Assembly: GCA_902552475.1 (NCBI GenBank)
Contig: CACDJC010000002.1
Location: 36,483-100,482 of the forward strand
Reading direction: 5' to 3'
Source of the DNA: an uncultured Pelagibacteraceae bacterium
GTDB lineage: Bacteria > Pseudomonadota > Alphaproteobacteria > Pelagibacterales > Pelagibacteraceae
DNA length: 64,000 bases
The position numbers were made by a program, and so were the translations under genes. This document shows positions 1,122-36,492 of the stretch, in pieces (position 1 is the stretch's first letter; the number at the start of each line of letters is the position of its first letter). The notes beneath the pieces were generated by a model. It saw only the letters and a list, made by a program, of their open reading frames with translations, ran no database searches and had not been told where the DNA came from.

Positions 1122-1349
1122 TTAGCTTGGGTTTTTTTTTAAAAACTCTATGTATCTTAAAACTTCATAAAATTTTTCATCCTCTATATCTTTATAACTT
1201 GCGTTAAATTTATTTTTTATACATATTGCTACATGTGCATAAGGGTTTCTTCCTTTGGGATGGTTAGGGTGATCTGGTAGCTGACCTTGTAAATAATCGC
1301 CAGCTTCCTGAATAATTTTCCAGAGTTTACTTGCGTTTTCTGGCGTCAT
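1122..1349 (-). CDS. conserved hypothetical 75-aa protein (MTPENASKLWKIIQEAGDYL...)
   Basis: ORF; its 5' end is duplicated as mini-ORFs at 3238..3306 and 4707..4775. Confidence 0.7.
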   Translation of the reverse strand: MTPENASKLWKIIQEAGDYLQGQLPDHPNHPKGRNPYAHVAICIKNKFNASYKDIEDEKFYEVLRYIEFLKKNPS

Positions 1350-1362
1350 TAACCCTCAAAAC

Positions 1363-1398
1363 TTGATTTATCTCTTTTGTATCTAGTTTGTATCTAGT
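1363..1398 (-). promoter_or_regulatory. 36-37 bp repeated upstream element, copy 1
   Basis: + strand ttgatttatctcttttgtatctagtttgtatctagt; ends 13 nt upstream of the ATG at 1349. Confidence 0.55.
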
Positions 1399-1417
1399 TA
1401 TCCTATAAAATCCCATA

Positions 1418-1696
1418 TTATGAAATGCCTGCAATTAAAATACAAAGTAAGATAATTAACATTAAAGGTAAGTTAATAATATTAACAAAATCCCACCATA
1501 AAATACTTAAAATACCCTCTCCATCTTTTTTCTTAGTCTTTTTTTTATTTTTCTTTTTATTTGTATTCGCAAAGTAAAATAATAAAAAAGCTAATATAAT
1601 TAACAAATAAGTTTGACCATCAGTTAAACCAAATGCATAACCAATTTTCATTAGGTAGATAAATACTACAAGTACAAAAGCAAATAAAATTACCAT
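1418..1696 (-). CDS. small membrane protein with Lys-rich cytoplasmic loop, hypothetical
   Basis: ORF; hydrophobic segments flanking NTNKKKNKKKTKKKDGEG. Confidence 0.5.
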   Translation of the reverse strand: MVILFAFVLVVFIYLMKIGYAFGLTDGQTYLLIILAFLLFYFANTNKKKNKKKTKKKDGEGILSILWWDFVNIINLPLMLIILLCILIAGIS

Positions 1697-1734
1697 ATTT
1701 TAAACAGAACCACGATCCCTAAAAGTTTTTTCAT
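1690..1734 (-). pseudogene. orphan signal-peptide stub MKKLLGIVVLFKIW*
   Basis: 33-bp segment 1705..1737 identical to 2582..2614 (start of the 2276..2611 gene), then diverges to a stop. Confidence 0.6.
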
Positions 1735-1737
1735 TAT

Positions 1738-2061
1738 TTATTCTAAACAGTTAATACAAGTTTTGTCACCAATTTTAGCCAATCTTGCAAAAGCAGTATT
1801 GCTTTCACTATCACAAACTTTACAAAAAAATTCATTTAGCTCTAGCTTATCATCAAATTCCTCTGCTGAAATTTTAAATCTTTCAATCACTTCAGTTTTA
1901 TTTAATCCACCAGAAATATGAACTTTATTAATATGAGATACCCAAAATATATAATAGTATTGTTCTTCATGGTGTGGTTGCTTGTCTACCTTAGTAATAC
2001 ACGTTAGATTTTTAACAGCTCCATGGATTAGAGGATCAGCATTTTTATAAGAGAGTGACAT
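1738..2061 (-). CDS. hypothetical protein with C-terminal CxxC...CxxC (zinc-ribbon-like)
   Basis: ORF; FCKVCDSE...KTCINCLE. Confidence 0.5.
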   Translation of the reverse strand: MSLSYKNADPLIHGAVKNLTCITKVDKQPHHEEQYYYIFWVSHINKVHISGGLNKTEVIERFKISAEEFDDKLELNEFFCKVCDSESNTAFARLAKIGDKTCINCLE

Positions 2062-2292
2062 TTAATTTAATTTAACAGCATCTTCTAGATCCCATTCCCA
2101 TCTTTTAATTGATTTTTTATTTGGATTTTCTGAAAGTTTTGCCTCAATAAAATCTTTTTTAATTCTTACTTTTATTAGTATTGAGATATCTTTAGGAAAA
2201 TTATCTATTAATTTAGGTATCTGATTATCAAATTCTTGGAGCGATATTCTTTTATCAAAGTAAGCTAAAAGTTTTCTACATCTTTTCTTCAT
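2062..2292 (-). CDS. hypothetical 76-aa protein
   Basis: ORF packed between neighbours, 17-nt overlap with 2276..2611. Confidence 0.45.
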   Translation of the reverse strand: MKKRCRKLLAYFDKRISLQEFDNQIPKLIDNFPKDISILIKVRIKKDFIEAKLSENPNKKSIKRWEWDLEDAVKLN

Positions 2293-2611
2293 ATCCCCAA
2301 AATTTTCCTTGATTATTTGTACCTGTGCTTTTCCATGTACCTTTTATTTTGTTCGAAAAATAAGACCTTGAACCTTTCATTATAAATACTGAGTTACTAA
2401 TATTAATATAAACCTTATTACCATTACTGGTGTAAGAACATCCGCTGCCAAAGGTACCAAATACGTTGCAAAAATTTCCACCTAGAAGTTGAATTTTATA
2501 TGCTGATCCATCATCAAGTTCTACATTCCAAATTACATTTAAATCTTTTGCATAAGAATTATTGCTAATTAACAATAAACCCAGAACCACGATCCCTAAA
2601 AGTTTTTTCAT
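2276..2611 (-). CDS. small secreted/periplasmic hypothetical protein
   Basis: N-terminal signal peptide MKKLLGIVVLGLLLISNNSYAKD. Confidence 0.6.
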   Translation of the reverse strand: MKKLLGIVVLGLLLISNNSYAKDLNVIWNVELDDGSAYKIQLLGGNFCNVFGTFGSGCSYTSNGNKVYINISNSVFIMKGSRSYFSNKIKGTWKSTGTNNQGKFWGYEEKM

Positions 2612-2614
2612 TAT

Positions 2615-3037
2615 CTAATCTTTATCAAAAAGAGAGTCTCCACCAATTGTTTCTTCTTCTTTTTGCTTAATCTTTTGTCTTTCATATTGATCTGACATAT
2701 TTAGTATATGTCTCATCATAGTTCCAATATAAGGCTCAAATTCATTTTCAGTAGCCTCTTCCCACATTTCTTCAAATCTCAGGTCAATATACTTTGAGTC
2801 TGCATTTTTATTTTTTGATAGTCTTATTGCTTTCATCATAATGGCTCGATCATGTTTTTTTGAAGAAACTTCTTTATCTATATTTAGGTATATTTTTTTT
2901 TCATTAGATTTAAGTAATGTTTTAAATTCTTTTTCGGCATTCATGAATAGGATATCACATTCTGAATTCCAATATTTCTTAGATTTTTTAAGTTTTAAAA
3001 ACCAATTTTTAAAGTTTGCAAATAGTGATTTATCCAT
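2615..3037 (-). CDS. hypothetical protein (140 aa)
   Basis: ORF preceded by the repeated leader and 37-bp element. Confidence 0.55.
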   Translation of the reverse strand: MDKSLFANFKNWFLKLKKSKKYWNSECDILFMNAEKEFKTLLKSNEKKIYLNIDKEVSSKKHDRAIMMKAIRLSKNKNADSKYIDLRFEEMWEEATENEFEPYIGTMMRHILNMSDQYERQKIKQKEEETIGGDSLFDKD

Positions 3038-3043
3038 AACCCA

Positions 3044-3103
3044 AGACTAACAAATCCTGAACCATGAGTCTATTTGCTTGAAATATGACTATTTGATTTA
3101 TCT
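3044..3103 (-). repeat. repeated ~60-bp leader, copy A (homologous to 4512..4571)
   Basis: agactaacaaatcctgaaccatgagtctatttgcttgaaatatgactatttgatttatct vs agattaacaaatcctgaactgagagtctatttgctttgaaaatagctatttgatttatct. Confidence 0.7.
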
Positions 3104-3129
3104 CTTTTGTATCTAGTTTGTAATGTAGT
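3093..3129 (-). promoter_or_regulatory. 37-bp repeated upstream element, copy 2
   Basis: ttgatttatctcttttgtatctagtttgtaatgtagt. Confidence 0.55.
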
Positions 3130-3200
3130 TTTTTAATTAAATTAATGAATCTTTTAGCGATTTATTTCAAACTAACTTTTTAATATCCGCATAAGTACTT

Positions 3201-3230
3201 TAGTTTAATGCAGTTTAATGTGGAATAATG
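3201..3230. repeat. 10-bp period tandem triplet
   Basis: tagtttaatg cagtttaatg tggaataatg, next to the shared tccgcataa. Confidence 0.5.
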
Positions 3231-3237
3231 TGTCCCT

Positions 3238-3306
3238 CTATTCCCGCAAATAATCACCAGCTTCCTGAATAATTTTCCAGAGTTTACTTGCGTTTTCTTT
3301 GTTCAC
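3238..3306 (-). pseudogene. 22-codon mini-ORF (V)NKENASKLWKIIQEAGDYLRE* (stub of the 75-aa protein, or a leader peptide)
   Basis: GTG-initiated frame, near-identical nucleotides to 1292..1340. Confidence 0.55.
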
Positions 3307-3319
3307 ACACTCACTTTTC

Positions 3320-3356
3320 TTGTTTTATCTCAATCTGGCCTAGTCTGTGGCATAGT
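3320..3356 (-). promoter_or_regulatory. 37-bp repeated upstream element, copy 3
   Basis: ttgttttatctcaatctggcctagtctgtggcatagt. Confidence 0.55.
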
Positions 3357-3375
3357 ATTTTATAAAATCCCATAA

Positions 3376-4506
3376 CTAATTAATATTTAGTATATTTTTT
3401 TTAAAAATTTCTAAAGCCTTGTCAAAATCACAATCTATATATTTGAAGATATAATCATCATCATTTTCCTCCTCATCTCTATTTACTACTCCTACATCAT
3501 AAAGTGATGGTGTATAATAATTCCAACGATAAAAAGGTGATCGAAAATTATCTTTTTTGCTTTCAACAATTAATTTCGCAAAATCTTTAACAATTTGTTT
3601 AAAAAACTTATCAAGATTTACTATATTATTATCAGACCAACTGCCTGTATTTTCGTAATATTTATATTTGTAGTGCACACGTGCTTCACCAAATATAACA
3701 CGACCCCAATTAAATTTGATAAATGCTGAATCTATATCAGAGGCATGTGGAGATCTACCCATCCAATTTTTCTTTTTGTTCCAATAATTTAATTGTTTTT
3801 CATGATGTTGTTTAGATTGTTTGATTTTTTCAGGATTATTTGGTGGTGATATTACAACTAAAATTTCTATCAAATTTCCGTAATGATCACTTTTAAACTT
3901 TGCGCTTAAATCTTCTGTGTTTTCATAAAAATTAATAAAATCAAACTTCTTTAAGCTTTTAACAAGTTTAACAATATTTTTTCTAAAGTTTTTTTCTTGG
4001 AAATTTACAAATTTTTTTATGATCTTTTTATCTTCAGTTTCTCTTTTAATTTGCTCGTCTTTTTCCTTTTGAGATGATTTAAGCTCATTTTCTAATAATG
4101 AGTCTAAATCAAACTCAGATTCGATGAATTCCTTTTCTTTCTTTAATTTATTTTTCTCTAACTCTTTGAGTTGCTTTGGATTAGGTTTTAATAAAATTTC
4201 CTTTTTTATACAATGTTCGGAGATTATATCTTCAACTTTAAAGAGTAATTCAGCATACTCCATTTCAAAAAACTCTCTATTTTTCTGATATCTGTTTGAA
4301 GATAATTTTTTATGAATGTGTTTTTCCATGTAATCAATATCATCAACTAAAAAAGTTGCATGTGGTTTAAACTTACCAAGAGTACCAGTGGCACTGTTTA
4401 ATTCCTTTATTCTTTCAGTAATCGTTCTAGATGTTTTTCCGATTTTAAAGAGATTTTTTTTCTGTTCAGAATTACTAACTATATAAATCAAACCATACTT
4501 AGACAT
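3376..4506 (-). CDS. GIY-YIG-type T5orf172/MUG113-domain protein with unknown C-terminal region
   Basis: GLIYIVSNSEQKKNLFKIGKTSRTITERIKELNSATG...DIDYMEKHIHKKLSSNRYQKNREFFEM. Confidence 0.75.
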   Translation of the reverse strand: MSKYGLIYIVSNSEQKKNLFKIGKTSRTITERIKELNSATGTLGKFKPHATFLVDDIDYMEKHIHKKLSSNRYQKNREFFEMEYAELLFKVEDIISEHCIKKEILLKPNPKQLKELEKNKLKKEKEFIESEFDLDSLLENELKSSQKEKDEQIKRETEDKKIIKKFVNFQEKNFRKNIVKLVKSLKKFDFINFYENTEDLSAKFKSDHYGNLIEILVVISPPNNPEKIKQSKQHHEKQLNYWNKKKNWMGRSPHASDIDSAFIKFNWGRVIFGEARVHYKYKYYENTGSWSDNNIVNLDKFFKQIVKDFAKLIVESKKDNFRSPFYRWNYYTPSLYDVGVVNRDEEENDDDYIFKYIDCDFDKALEIFKKNILNIN

Positions 4507-4511
4507 ATTTT

Positions 4512-4571
4512 AAGATTAACAAATCCTGAACTGAGAGTCTATTTGCTTTGAAAATAGCTATTTGATTTATC
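4512..4571 (-). repeat. repeated ~60-bp leader, copy B
   Basis: Homologous to 3044..3103; immediately upstream of the 3376..4506 gene. Confidence 0.7.
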
Positions 4572-4598
4572 TAAATCTGGCCTAGTCTGTGGCATAGT
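4562..4598 (-). promoter_or_regulatory. 37-bp repeated upstream element, copy 4
   Basis: ttgatttatctaaatctggcctagtctgtggcatagt. Confidence 0.55.
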
Positions 4599-4601
4599 TT
4601 T

Positions 4602-4629
4602 TTGCTTAAATTGATGAGTCTTTAAGCAA
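4602..4629. repeat. perfect 9-bp inverted repeat
   Basis: ttgcttaaa (4602-4610) / tttaagcaa (4621-4629), 10-nt loop. Confidence 0.5.
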
Positions 4630-4660
4630 TTTATTTTTGGTGAAAATTAAATTGTCCGCA

Positions 4661-4694
4661 TAACTAGTGTGAAGTAGTGTGAGGTAGTGTCAGG
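4661..4694. repeat. 10-bp period tandem triplet
   Basis: agtgtgaagt agtgtgaggt agtgtcaggt at 4665..4694. Confidence 0.55.
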
Positions 4695-4706
4695 TAGGTT
4701 GTACCA

Positions 4707-4775
4707 CTAGCACCCCAAATAATCGCCAGCTTCCTGAATAATTTTCCAGAGTTTCTGCGAGTTTTCTGGCGTCAT
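4707..4775 (-). pseudogene. 22-codon mini-ORF MTPENSQKLWKIIQEAGDYLGC* (stub of the 75-aa protein, or a leader peptide)
   Basis: ATG frame, near-identical nucleotides to the start of the 1122..1349 gene. Confidence 0.55.
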
Positions 4776-4788
4776 AACTACTAAAACT

Positions 4789-4825
4789 TTGTTTTATCTC
4801 GAAAGTCTCTAGTCTGGACACTAGT
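4789..4825 (-). promoter_or_regulatory. 37-bp repeated upstream element, copy 5
   Basis: ttgttttatctcgaaagtctctagtctggacactagt. Confidence 0.5.
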
Positions 4826-4850
4826 TTAGACTAAATAAATAAAGAAATCA

Positions 4851-4946
4851 CTAATAAAAAATAAAGGATCGCTGCTCTAGTTTTGGATTCAAAAATGGGC
4901 CTTTTCCTGGATTTGTGGGTTGTGGATAATTATTCCAATCTTCGTT
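4851..4946 (-). pseudogene. possible C-terminal gene remnant ...NEDWNNYPQPTNPGKGPFLNPKLEQRSFIFY*
   Basis: Open minus-strand frame with Pro/Gly/Gln/Trp-rich content unlike typical AT-rich spacer. Confidence 0.3.
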
Positions 4947-4971
4947 TTTTTTCCCTAAAATTAAGTAATAA

Positions 4972-13851: not shown

Positions 13852-14946
13852 ATGTTTAGAAAATCAATTACTTTATCATTACAAGATGAAATTAATTTTT
13901 TAAAAAAAAGAAAAAAATTTGCAATTTCTCTTAGCAACCCATCGTTTGAAAAAAAAAATCTAAGAAATTTTAATTTAGAAAATTTTAATGTCCAAAAATC
14001 TTTATCTGGTGAAGAAAAATTAATAGAATTGGCAAAAAAAAATTTACTAAGACAATGGATCATAAAAAAACCAAAAGAAAATGATATTATTATAACTAAT
14101 GGAGCAAAAGCAGCTTTGTATTGTGTATTTAAGGTAATTGCTAATAGGCAAAAAAAAAATAATTTTGGTATAGTAAATCCTAATTGGCCGACTTACATTG
14201 ACTTAATAAAAATATCAGGAGCAATTCCAGTATTTTTCAATACAAAAATAGAAAATAAATATGAAATTAATATAGCGACTTTAGAAAAATTTATAAAACA
14301 AAAAAAATTACGAATTTTGGTGATTTCAAATCCAAACAATCCTTCAGGAAAGATTTATAATCATCAAATTATAAAAAAAATTATCAATATTTGTGAAAAA
14401 AATAGATGTTACTTAGTATTAGACGAGAGTTTTTCTTCGCATGTTTTTGAAAAGAAGTTTACGCAAAACAAAAAGGATTACAAAAGCAAATATTTGATAA
14501 TAATAAATTCATTTTCTAAAAATTACCATCTTCAAGGCCTTAGATTAGGAGTTGTTCTTGCAAAAAAAAAATTAGTTGAGGAATTTTCCAATTTGCATAT
14601 AGCAATCAATGGCGCCCCAAACAATATATCGCAAAATTTAATAATAAATCATAATAAGGCACTACTGAAAACTAAAGATATTAAAAATAAAATGAAATTT
14701 GTAACAGATTTTCTTTTTTCAAAAGGAGTAGATTTTTATAAACCAGAGGGTTCATTTTATATTTTTCCAAAAATTTTAAACAAAAAAAACTTTAAAAATT
14801 TATCAAAAAAATATGGTTTATTTTATATAGGTGGAGAAAATTTTGGAAGCAAAATCTATAAAGATCATTATAGATTTTGTTTTGAAAAAAACATAAATGA
14901 ACTAAAAAAAATTATTCAAATTATGAATAAAAATAAAATATACTAA
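13852..14946 (+). CDS. class I/II PLP aminotransferase (HisC/CobD-like)
   Basis: VISNPNNPSGKIY, LDESF, INSFSKNYHLQGLRLG. Confidence 0.87.
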   Translation: MFRKSITLSLQDEINFLKKRKKFAISLSNPSFEKKNLRNFNLENFNVQKSLSGEEKLIELAKKNLLRQWIIKKPKENDIIITNGAKAALYCVFKVIANRQKKNNFGIVNPNWPTYIDLIKISGAIPVFFNTKIENKYEINIATLEKFIKQKKLRILVISNPNNPSGKIYNHQIIKKIINICEKNRCYLVLDESFSSHVFEKKFTQNKKDYKSKYLIIINSFSKNYHLQGLRLGVVLAKKKLVEEFSNLHIAINGAPNNISQNLIINHNKALLKTKDIKNKMKFVTDFLFSKGVDFYKPEGSFYIFPKILNKKNFKNLSKKYGLFYIGGENFGSKIYKDHYRFCFEKNINELKKIIQIMNKNKIY

Positions 14947-36408: not shown

Positions 36409-36492
36409 AATAATTCTTTTAAAAAAAAGAGGATATACTATTATAAATTTTTAATTACAATATAAAAAATACAATTTTTACTTAAATTTTCT

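Follow-up and report, generated by a model that had tools for sequence, protein, structure and literature searches.

Integrase-less gene cassettes at the MTPEN gene of SAR11 bacteria and their probable mobilisation by a phage-satellite integrase

Introduction

How does the same series of non-coding modules come to stand twice before unrelated genes in a streamlined genome? The question is raised by an array on the minus strand of contig CACDJC010000002.1 (assembly GCA_902552475.1) of an uncultured Pelagibacteraceae bacterium. It lies in a stretch of 64,000 nucleotides (positions 36,483 to 100,482 of the contig), which was analysed as a whole and is called the window here, and it ends at a gene for a 75-aa protein, here named MTPEN. 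The first-pass annotation had likened it to a recombination-driven cassette system with constant non-coding modules and varying cargo, and this was borne out by a comparison of SAR11 genomes, in which 59 cassettes were found at 50 loci. SAR11 are the ocean's commonest bacteria and have streamlined genomes; to our knowledge, few mechanisms have been described by which they gain accessory genes.

The present analysis adds a mechanism to that description, namely the attP and attB sites of a satellite tyrosine integrase, with attB located in the MTPEN gene. The array is very probably a row of small elements integrated at one chromosomal site, the 5' end of MTPEN, which carry the attP of this integrase.

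Two cassettes in the window

The minus strand was taken as array orientation, and the modules were named E (37-bp element), M (MTPEN start, or M' for a stub), R (10-bp repeats), S (spacer) and L (leader). The order E1-M'-R-S-E2-L-cargo is present twice and is followed by E1 and the full 75-aa MTPEN gene. This repeated order had been recognised before; the two copies, at 4843-4499 and 3374-3030, show a constant offset of 1469 bp and an overall identity of 71-80% across ~345 bp, the longest common stretch being 256 nt (71%, E = 3e-33). The 37-bp element together with the MTPEN start is 77-80% identical to the corresponding part of the full gene across 110-128 nt (E ~1e-21), far beyond chance. 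The open reading frames (ORFs) of the T5orf172 protein, of the unrelated 140-aa protein and of the full MTPEN with its upstream 37-bp element were found as annotated (Table 1). Cargo does differ between the units, but the second cassette holds five ORFs rather than one. The MTPEN mini-ORF is indeed present both times and can now be defined as the first ~20 MTPEN codons followed by a kept stop. The window contains two integrase-less elements, 1469 and 1957 bp long, and what remains of the right end of a satellite. In the source genome (1.04 Mb in 54 contigs, ~71% complete) the M-R-S module was found at the array locus only.

The 5' end of MTPEN as attachment site

About 60 loci were fetched for comparison. 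Their right flank is mostly constant and consists of MTPEN, a gene of the beta-eliminating-lyase family and an amidinotransferase-like gene, preceded by zero to several cassettes and then a variable left flank. At three cassette-free loci (L049, L050 and L052) host DNA directly precedes MTPEN, and E is missing. In an array, the first M' is often flanked by host DNA (left) and R-S (right), the last M stands between E1 and the full gene, and inner copies lie between E1 and R-S. This arrangement fits attL, attR and attP-like junctions, respectively. A core repeat at both ends and a target gene that is split and restored, with M' on the left and full MTPEN on the right, as looked for in an element of a tyrosine integrase, were found at 50 loci. 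The attB site coincides with the 5' end of MTPEN, and the mini-ORF is the displaced stub of this gene, 22 aa long in 66 of the 73 copies. Synonymous conservation in MTPEN amounts to 0.83 for codons 9-20 vs 0.62 for codons 21-75 (p = 0.001). The stop codon of the 22-aa stubs (e.g. window 4707-4775 and 3238-3306) is kept in satellites too, next to bases that vary.

MTPEN is widespread. Of 127 near-complete family genomes, 81 encode the protein, covering 10 of 14 genera, with M' stubs in other genera too, and its start is present in 249 of 399 genomes of the window's genus. It has no Pfam family; weak PHROG matches include anti-repressor families, and the predicted fold of three helices gave no PDB match with E <1. 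A full MTPEN gene (13892-14119) with an E element was also found on a 21.8-kb viral contig, L085, beside a satellite-like replication module. Together with the anti-repressor matches, this copy suggests that the MTPEN gene may be of phage origin.

Satellites with the same modules beside an integrase gene

In four phage-satellite-like elements, called satellites here (L084, L086, L155 and L156, i.e. three viral contigs and one SAR11 single-cell genome), E1-M'-R lies directly upstream of an integrase gene. In all four, the first codons of that gene contain an E2-like element, and the spacing is that of the cassettes. The aligned attP of L084, L086 and L155 is colinear with the cassette modules, and the same architecture is present in L156. 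Judged by this sequence comparison, what the array repeats as non-coding modules is the attP of a tyrosine integrase. The M core pattern was matched by two viral contigs.

The satellite L084 (9070 bp) encodes a 581-aa tyrosine integrase (PHROG_1, 1e-22), a primase with AEP-TOTE and DUF5906, and a RusA-like gene; no structural gene was recognised in it. The others are likewise of ~9 kb (L086, 9003 bp; L155, 8983 bp; L156, an 8864-bp contig of single-cell genome AG-447-P19). All four possess their own integrase and replication genes, which are absent from the window cassettes. A structural model of the integrase, of modest quality (mean pLDDT 72, pTM 0.39), matches Tn1549 Int, XerA/XerH and lambda Int in the PDB. 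For its N-terminal part, the matches were arm-type binding domains, namely those of HPI and P4-like integrases (3jtz, 3rmp; TM 0.75 by target, E >0.1). This predicted arm-binding part diverges fastest, with an identity of 0.61-0.68 among L086, L155 and L156, where the catalytic part reaches 0.91-0.93. Genome G218 contains, at MTPEN and in the normal MTPEN neighbourhood, an integrated relative whose integrase is broken, and a search of isolated phages for the integrase gave no match. Related integrases (~30% identity) are encoded by the satellites L096, L098, L099 and L100, where the M core is not nearby and which presumably use other attachment sites.

Matched arms of the cassettes

Each E element is built from a pair of ~11-12-bp direct repeats and has a variable part. 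In the second repeat, E2 and the E1 at the far end of the same cassette, 0.7-7 kb away, agree at 10.96 of 13 positions vs 7.44 of 13 between cassettes (57 M-to-M intervals). None of 20,000 permutations of the arms reached the observed sum of 625, the permuted maximum being 490. The M' pair of L144, which is 15 kb apart and probably no cassette, was left out of the cassette counts and kept in this test, where it lowers the observed match. In a subset of 11 representatives of dissimilar type the agreement was 10.27 of 13, again with 0 of 20,000 permutations, although only 5 of the 11 had their own E1 as the strictly best match. Agreement between the E elements on either side of an M' is only 7.16 of 13 positions, so that local homogenisation is not the cause of the match; in both window cassettes it is complete (Table 1).

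Arms of satellites recur in cassettes. Those of L086 match L110 at 25/25 positions, those of L156 match L035 and L128 at 25/25 and both ends of window cassette 1 at 24/25, and those of L084 match L112 and L146 at 24/25, with medians of 11-15. These matches may reflect descent or function.

A lineage of cassettes and its cargo

None of the 59 cassettes encodes an integrase, in agreement with its reported absence from the window array, and no integrase match was obtained among their 154 cargo ORFs, which form 121 clusters and differ widely. Cassette length ranges from 749 to 6847 bp (median 2203). In the S module, 56 cassettes show a mean identity of 74% to one another and of 32% to satellites; satellites compared with each other give 43%. 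Since this module is common to the cassettes and not to the satellites, the cassettes look like one non-autonomous lineage. The ~60-bp leader in the window contains a promoter-like TAGACT-N17-TARTCT near the start codon, and 13 of 56 cassettes have this motif behind E2 at an almost constant distance (0.04 expected). L-like promoter elements were also seen at L048 (2792-2831 and 7967-8010), without E or M and not near MTPEN.

Cargo genes, often defence genes, encode C5 and N6 DNA methyltransferases, type I restriction subunits and an EcoRI-type methylase. Further cargo comprises Eco57I-, GmrSD-, Schlafen/AlbA- and Z1-domain proteins and VSR/DUF559-like nucleases, and the rest includes hydrolases, a DUF1330 protein, BipA with a DEAD helicase, and many small secreted proteins.

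Transfer of cassettes between hosts

Identity between the second cassette of L110 and the sole cassette of L114 amounts to 99.7% over 2352 bp; their hosts have 82.6% identity in the DNA to the right and unrelated left flanks. The cassette identity stops just past GATTATTTGG, at MTPEN codon 20, i.e. inside the MTPEN core. Full-length MTPEN genes at L137 and L149 have satellite-like codons up to 18, and these two boundaries place the putative crossover at codons 18-20. In a second pair, L041 and L136, the cassettes are 97% identical over 2703 bp and their hosts 77% over the compared stretch. Here both arms have changed together, and the differences are concentrated in the att ends.

Genome G338 contains a copy of the window's 140-aa gene behind a different E2 arm and without M-R-S, which indicates that cargo changes arms by a second route as well. 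This E2-L-140-aa unit (L168 ~1400-1940, contig C4) follows an unrelated gene and is not on the contig of the MTPEN array. The first-pass annotation had named two accounts that would contradict it, and neither held. Flanks and cargo are not always inherited as one unit, given that one cargo can stand with different arm types (L041/L136; the 140-aa gene of the window vs L168) and one arm type with different cargo. One recent tandem duplication followed by divergence was ruled out, since the cassettes (59, at 50 loci) have matched arm types of their own.

Proposed mechanism

In the favoured explanation, each element spans the interval between the cores (codons 18-20) of two successive MTPEN starts and carries a complete attP, E1-M-R-S-E2. 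This attP would belong to the integrase of a phage-satellite-like family of ~9 kb, and the cassettes would have lost the integrase gene and would hold cargo, often behind a promoter. Integration would provide MTPEN with a new promoter and start and leave the old start as a 22-aa stub, and repeated integration would produce tandem arrays. The two arms of a cassette would match because the same integrase must bind both, and cassettes of different arm type would answer to different integrases. Having the landing site of the satellite family and no enzyme of their own, the cassettes are, to judge from their sequences, probably mobilised in trans by the satellite's integrase. The integrase of an incoming satellite would bind the matched arms, excise the cassettes and integrate them, and transfer between cells might take place in phage particles. 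The attP architecture shared with integrase-bearing elements, the matched arms, the sharp ends of a transferred cassette and the lack of integrase in the cassettes are all observed directly.

Several points weigh against this mechanism. Neither excision nor a circular form nor mobilisation in trans was seen. RecA recombination between the ~60-bp M repeats could move cassettes too. The S or L modules of cassettes were found in no viral contig searched, which leaves packaging unsupported. Resident helpers are rare, as an integrase of the satellite clade is present in 1 of 399 genomes of the genus and is broken there, so that a helper would usually come by infection. L155 and L085 have no cassette partner above 19/25, arms are mismatched in L034, L097, L102 and L152, as expected from decay or secondary recombination, and E2-L-cargo without M-R-S (L168) is not predicted by the model.

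A broader proposal is evenly poised between right and wrong: an integrase-less cassette lineage of SAR11 would parasitise the integrases of phage satellites, with the 11-bp arm repeats as specificity code, and would supply defence and surface genes, in an integron-like manner, to the most streamlined of the ocean's bacteria. The satellites would diversify the arm-binding domain of the integrase and the arm sites while keeping the same attB, and the cassettes would follow by changing both arms jointly.

Alternative explanations

The cassettes could be decayed satellites, left over after loss of the integrase and replication genes, with arms that once belonged to one element and no mobilisation at present. 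The satellite remnant in the window and the broken satellite at MTPEN in G218 fit such decay, as does E2, which keeps the codon pattern of the integrase N-terminus with the start codon missing. Decay products of this kind have been described as cis-mobilizable elements (CIMEs; PMC5704250). Decay without movement is nevertheless unlikely. The S module, shared among cassettes and divergent from that of satellites, points to a common ancestor which already lacked the integrase. A cassette has moved whole between diverged hosts (L110/L114), and both arms have changed jointly in an integrase-less pair (L041/L136). Cargo recurs under several arm types and vice versa, and resident satellites are far fewer than cassettes.

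Homologous recombination alone, in which M and E serve as short homology for RecA exchange of cargo without any site-specific recombinase, was judged very improbable. In its favour, M is ~60 bp long and nearly identical, and the mismatched arms of L034 and L152 fit secondary recombination. The DNA that the 140-aa gene has in common with L168 begins only inside E2, which shows that exchange at E does take place. Such exchange leaves unexplained why the modules equal an attP beside an integrase gene, why distant cassette ends match and why arm spacing is fixed.

An integron-like array, with attC sites and the integron integrase elsewhere in the genome, would fit tandem, mostly short cassettes with varied cargo in an array without integrase, but it can be dismissed with near certainty, as the boundaries lie in the MTPEN core with full attP and arms, which contradicts attC ends, many cassettes hold cargo on the opposite strand, and no attC-like pair was found in the region (a search run with no positive control), consistent with the first-pass annotation.

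Two further candidates were rejected. A Xer/dif (pdif) module had been suggested by tccgcataa; no dif-like match (XerC-6 bp-XerD) was found in the window, and the TTATGCGG motif is missing from the attP of the satellites. E is not an ordinary operator of one regulator, given that its variable repeat is particular to each cassette and agrees between the two ends of that cassette, but not over a junction.

Features of the array and a dispersed repeat

The coordinates are collected in Table 1. The identity of the leftmost segment with the right end of L086 indicates that a satellite formerly stood left of cassette 1; this segment is also 77% identical to L155 and L156. The T5orf172 protein belongs to the PADLOC candidate defence family PDC-S57 (3e-19), and a search of 369 genomes of the genus for its gene gave, apart from the window's own genome, no more than short, low-scoring DNA matches. 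For the other four cargo ORFs of cassette 2 (1418..2611) no Pfam family scored over the curated cut-off.

Table 1. Modules, genes and putative recombination sites of the array (window coordinates).
Feature	Position	Strand	Evidence or remark
Full-length MTPEN gene, 75 aa; attB target, intact at array right end (attR side)	1122..1349	-	ORF
Putative crossover core, MTPEN codons 18-20, ATTATTT region	1290..1298	-	End of L110/L114 identity; codons of L137 and L149
E1 arm of cassette 2, direct repeats AACTAGATACA + GAGATAAATCAAG	1362..1399	-	13/13 vs own E2
Cassette 2 cargo ORFs, 92/107/76/111 aa	1418-1696, 1738-2061, 2062-2292, 2276-2611	-	ORF list
Cassette 2 first cargo ORF, 140 aa	2615..3037	-	ORF; 98% identical copy in G338 (L168)
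L leader of cassette 2, promoter-like TAGACT-N17-TAGTCT at 3044-3072	3035..3090	-	
E2 arm of cassette 2	3092..3130	-	
S module of cassette 2	3131..3194	-	
R of cassette 2 unit, 10-bp repeats, T-type	3198..3232	-	
M'2, 22-aa MTPEN stub; att core at cassette 1/cassette 2 junction	3238..3306	-	
E1 arm of cassette 1, ACTATGCCACAG ACTAGGCCAGATT	3319..3356	-	13/13 vs own E2; 24/25 vs E1 of satellite L156
Cassette 1 cargo, 376-aa T5orf172/MUG113 protein	3376..4506	-	Pfam PF10544, E = 4.8e-15
L leader of cassette 1, promoter-like TAGACT-N17-TAATCT at 4513-4541	4504..4559	-	
E2 arm of cassette 1	4561..4599	-	
S module of cassette 1	4600..4663	-	
R of cassette 1 unit, 10-bp repeats, C-type (CACACTACYT)	4664..4692	-	
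M'1, 22-aa MTPEN stub; att core at cassette 1 left end	4707..4775	-	
E1 arm of former upstream element, preceding first mini-ORF	4787..4826	-	
Satellite right-end remnant with its attP, overlapping cassette-end parts	4661..4960	-	84% over 300 bp vs L086 4773-5070

A separate repeat was noticed at 2577-2611 and 1705-1744 (minus strand), where the starts of MKKLLGIVVLGLL signal-peptide genes share ~35-40 bp, ATGAAAAAACTTTTAGGGATCGTGGTTCTGGG, as a dispersed, near-identical repeat. The ATGAAAAAACTTTTAGGGATCGTGGTTCTGGG repeat accounts for most of the matches in a search that gave a match in 250 of 369 genomes of the genus. It is often present in several copies per genome, and truncated copies stand just before E1 in L034, L037 and L040. 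It may represent a second recombination site of similar style.

Significance and comparison with known systems

Under the proposed mechanism, the MTPEN start would serve the whole family as a landing site for the stacking and exchange of cassettes, whose cargo includes defence genes (restriction-modification among them), hydrolases and secreted proteins. The matched arms offer a prediction of which integrase moves which cassette, and they raise the possibility of a hyperparasite living on the integrase of a phage satellite. The attP/attB pairs are a candidate genetic tool for SAR11. A search of the open-access literature brought up no SAR11 case and no description of matched arms on integrase-less cassettes.

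The CIMEs related to ICESt1 in Streptococcus have lost the integrase, kept attL and attR, and are stacked in tandem at one attB (PMC5704250). The SAR11 cassettes resemble them in all of these features. Unlike CIMEs, their relatives are a phage-satellite-like family and not ICEs, they form a lineage marked by a conserved S module of its own and by varied cargo, and each cassette has both arms, matched, with array neighbours usually differing in arm type. In dusA-associated islands (PMC4482086), a tyrosine integrase targets the 5' end of a protein gene, the function of which is possibly restored, and the cargo is diverse; the integrase gene is universal there, whereas it is absent from the SAR11 cassettes.

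The helper elements of ~9 kb, with integrase, a primase with DUF5906 and no recognised structural genes, are similar in plan to PICMIs (PMC10803314), and were likened by description to marine VEIMEs and tycheposons. Unlike VEIMEs, tycheposons and PICMIs, the cassettes have neither integrase nor primase and would depend on a satellite which is itself probably a phage parasite. They are in this respect like CALIN arrays and MITEs, which are non-autonomous and moved by the recombinase of another element (PMC11389934). The sites of the SAR11 cassettes differ from those of CALINs and MITEs in that they are not attC or terminal inverted repeats, but a full attP with two arm regions.

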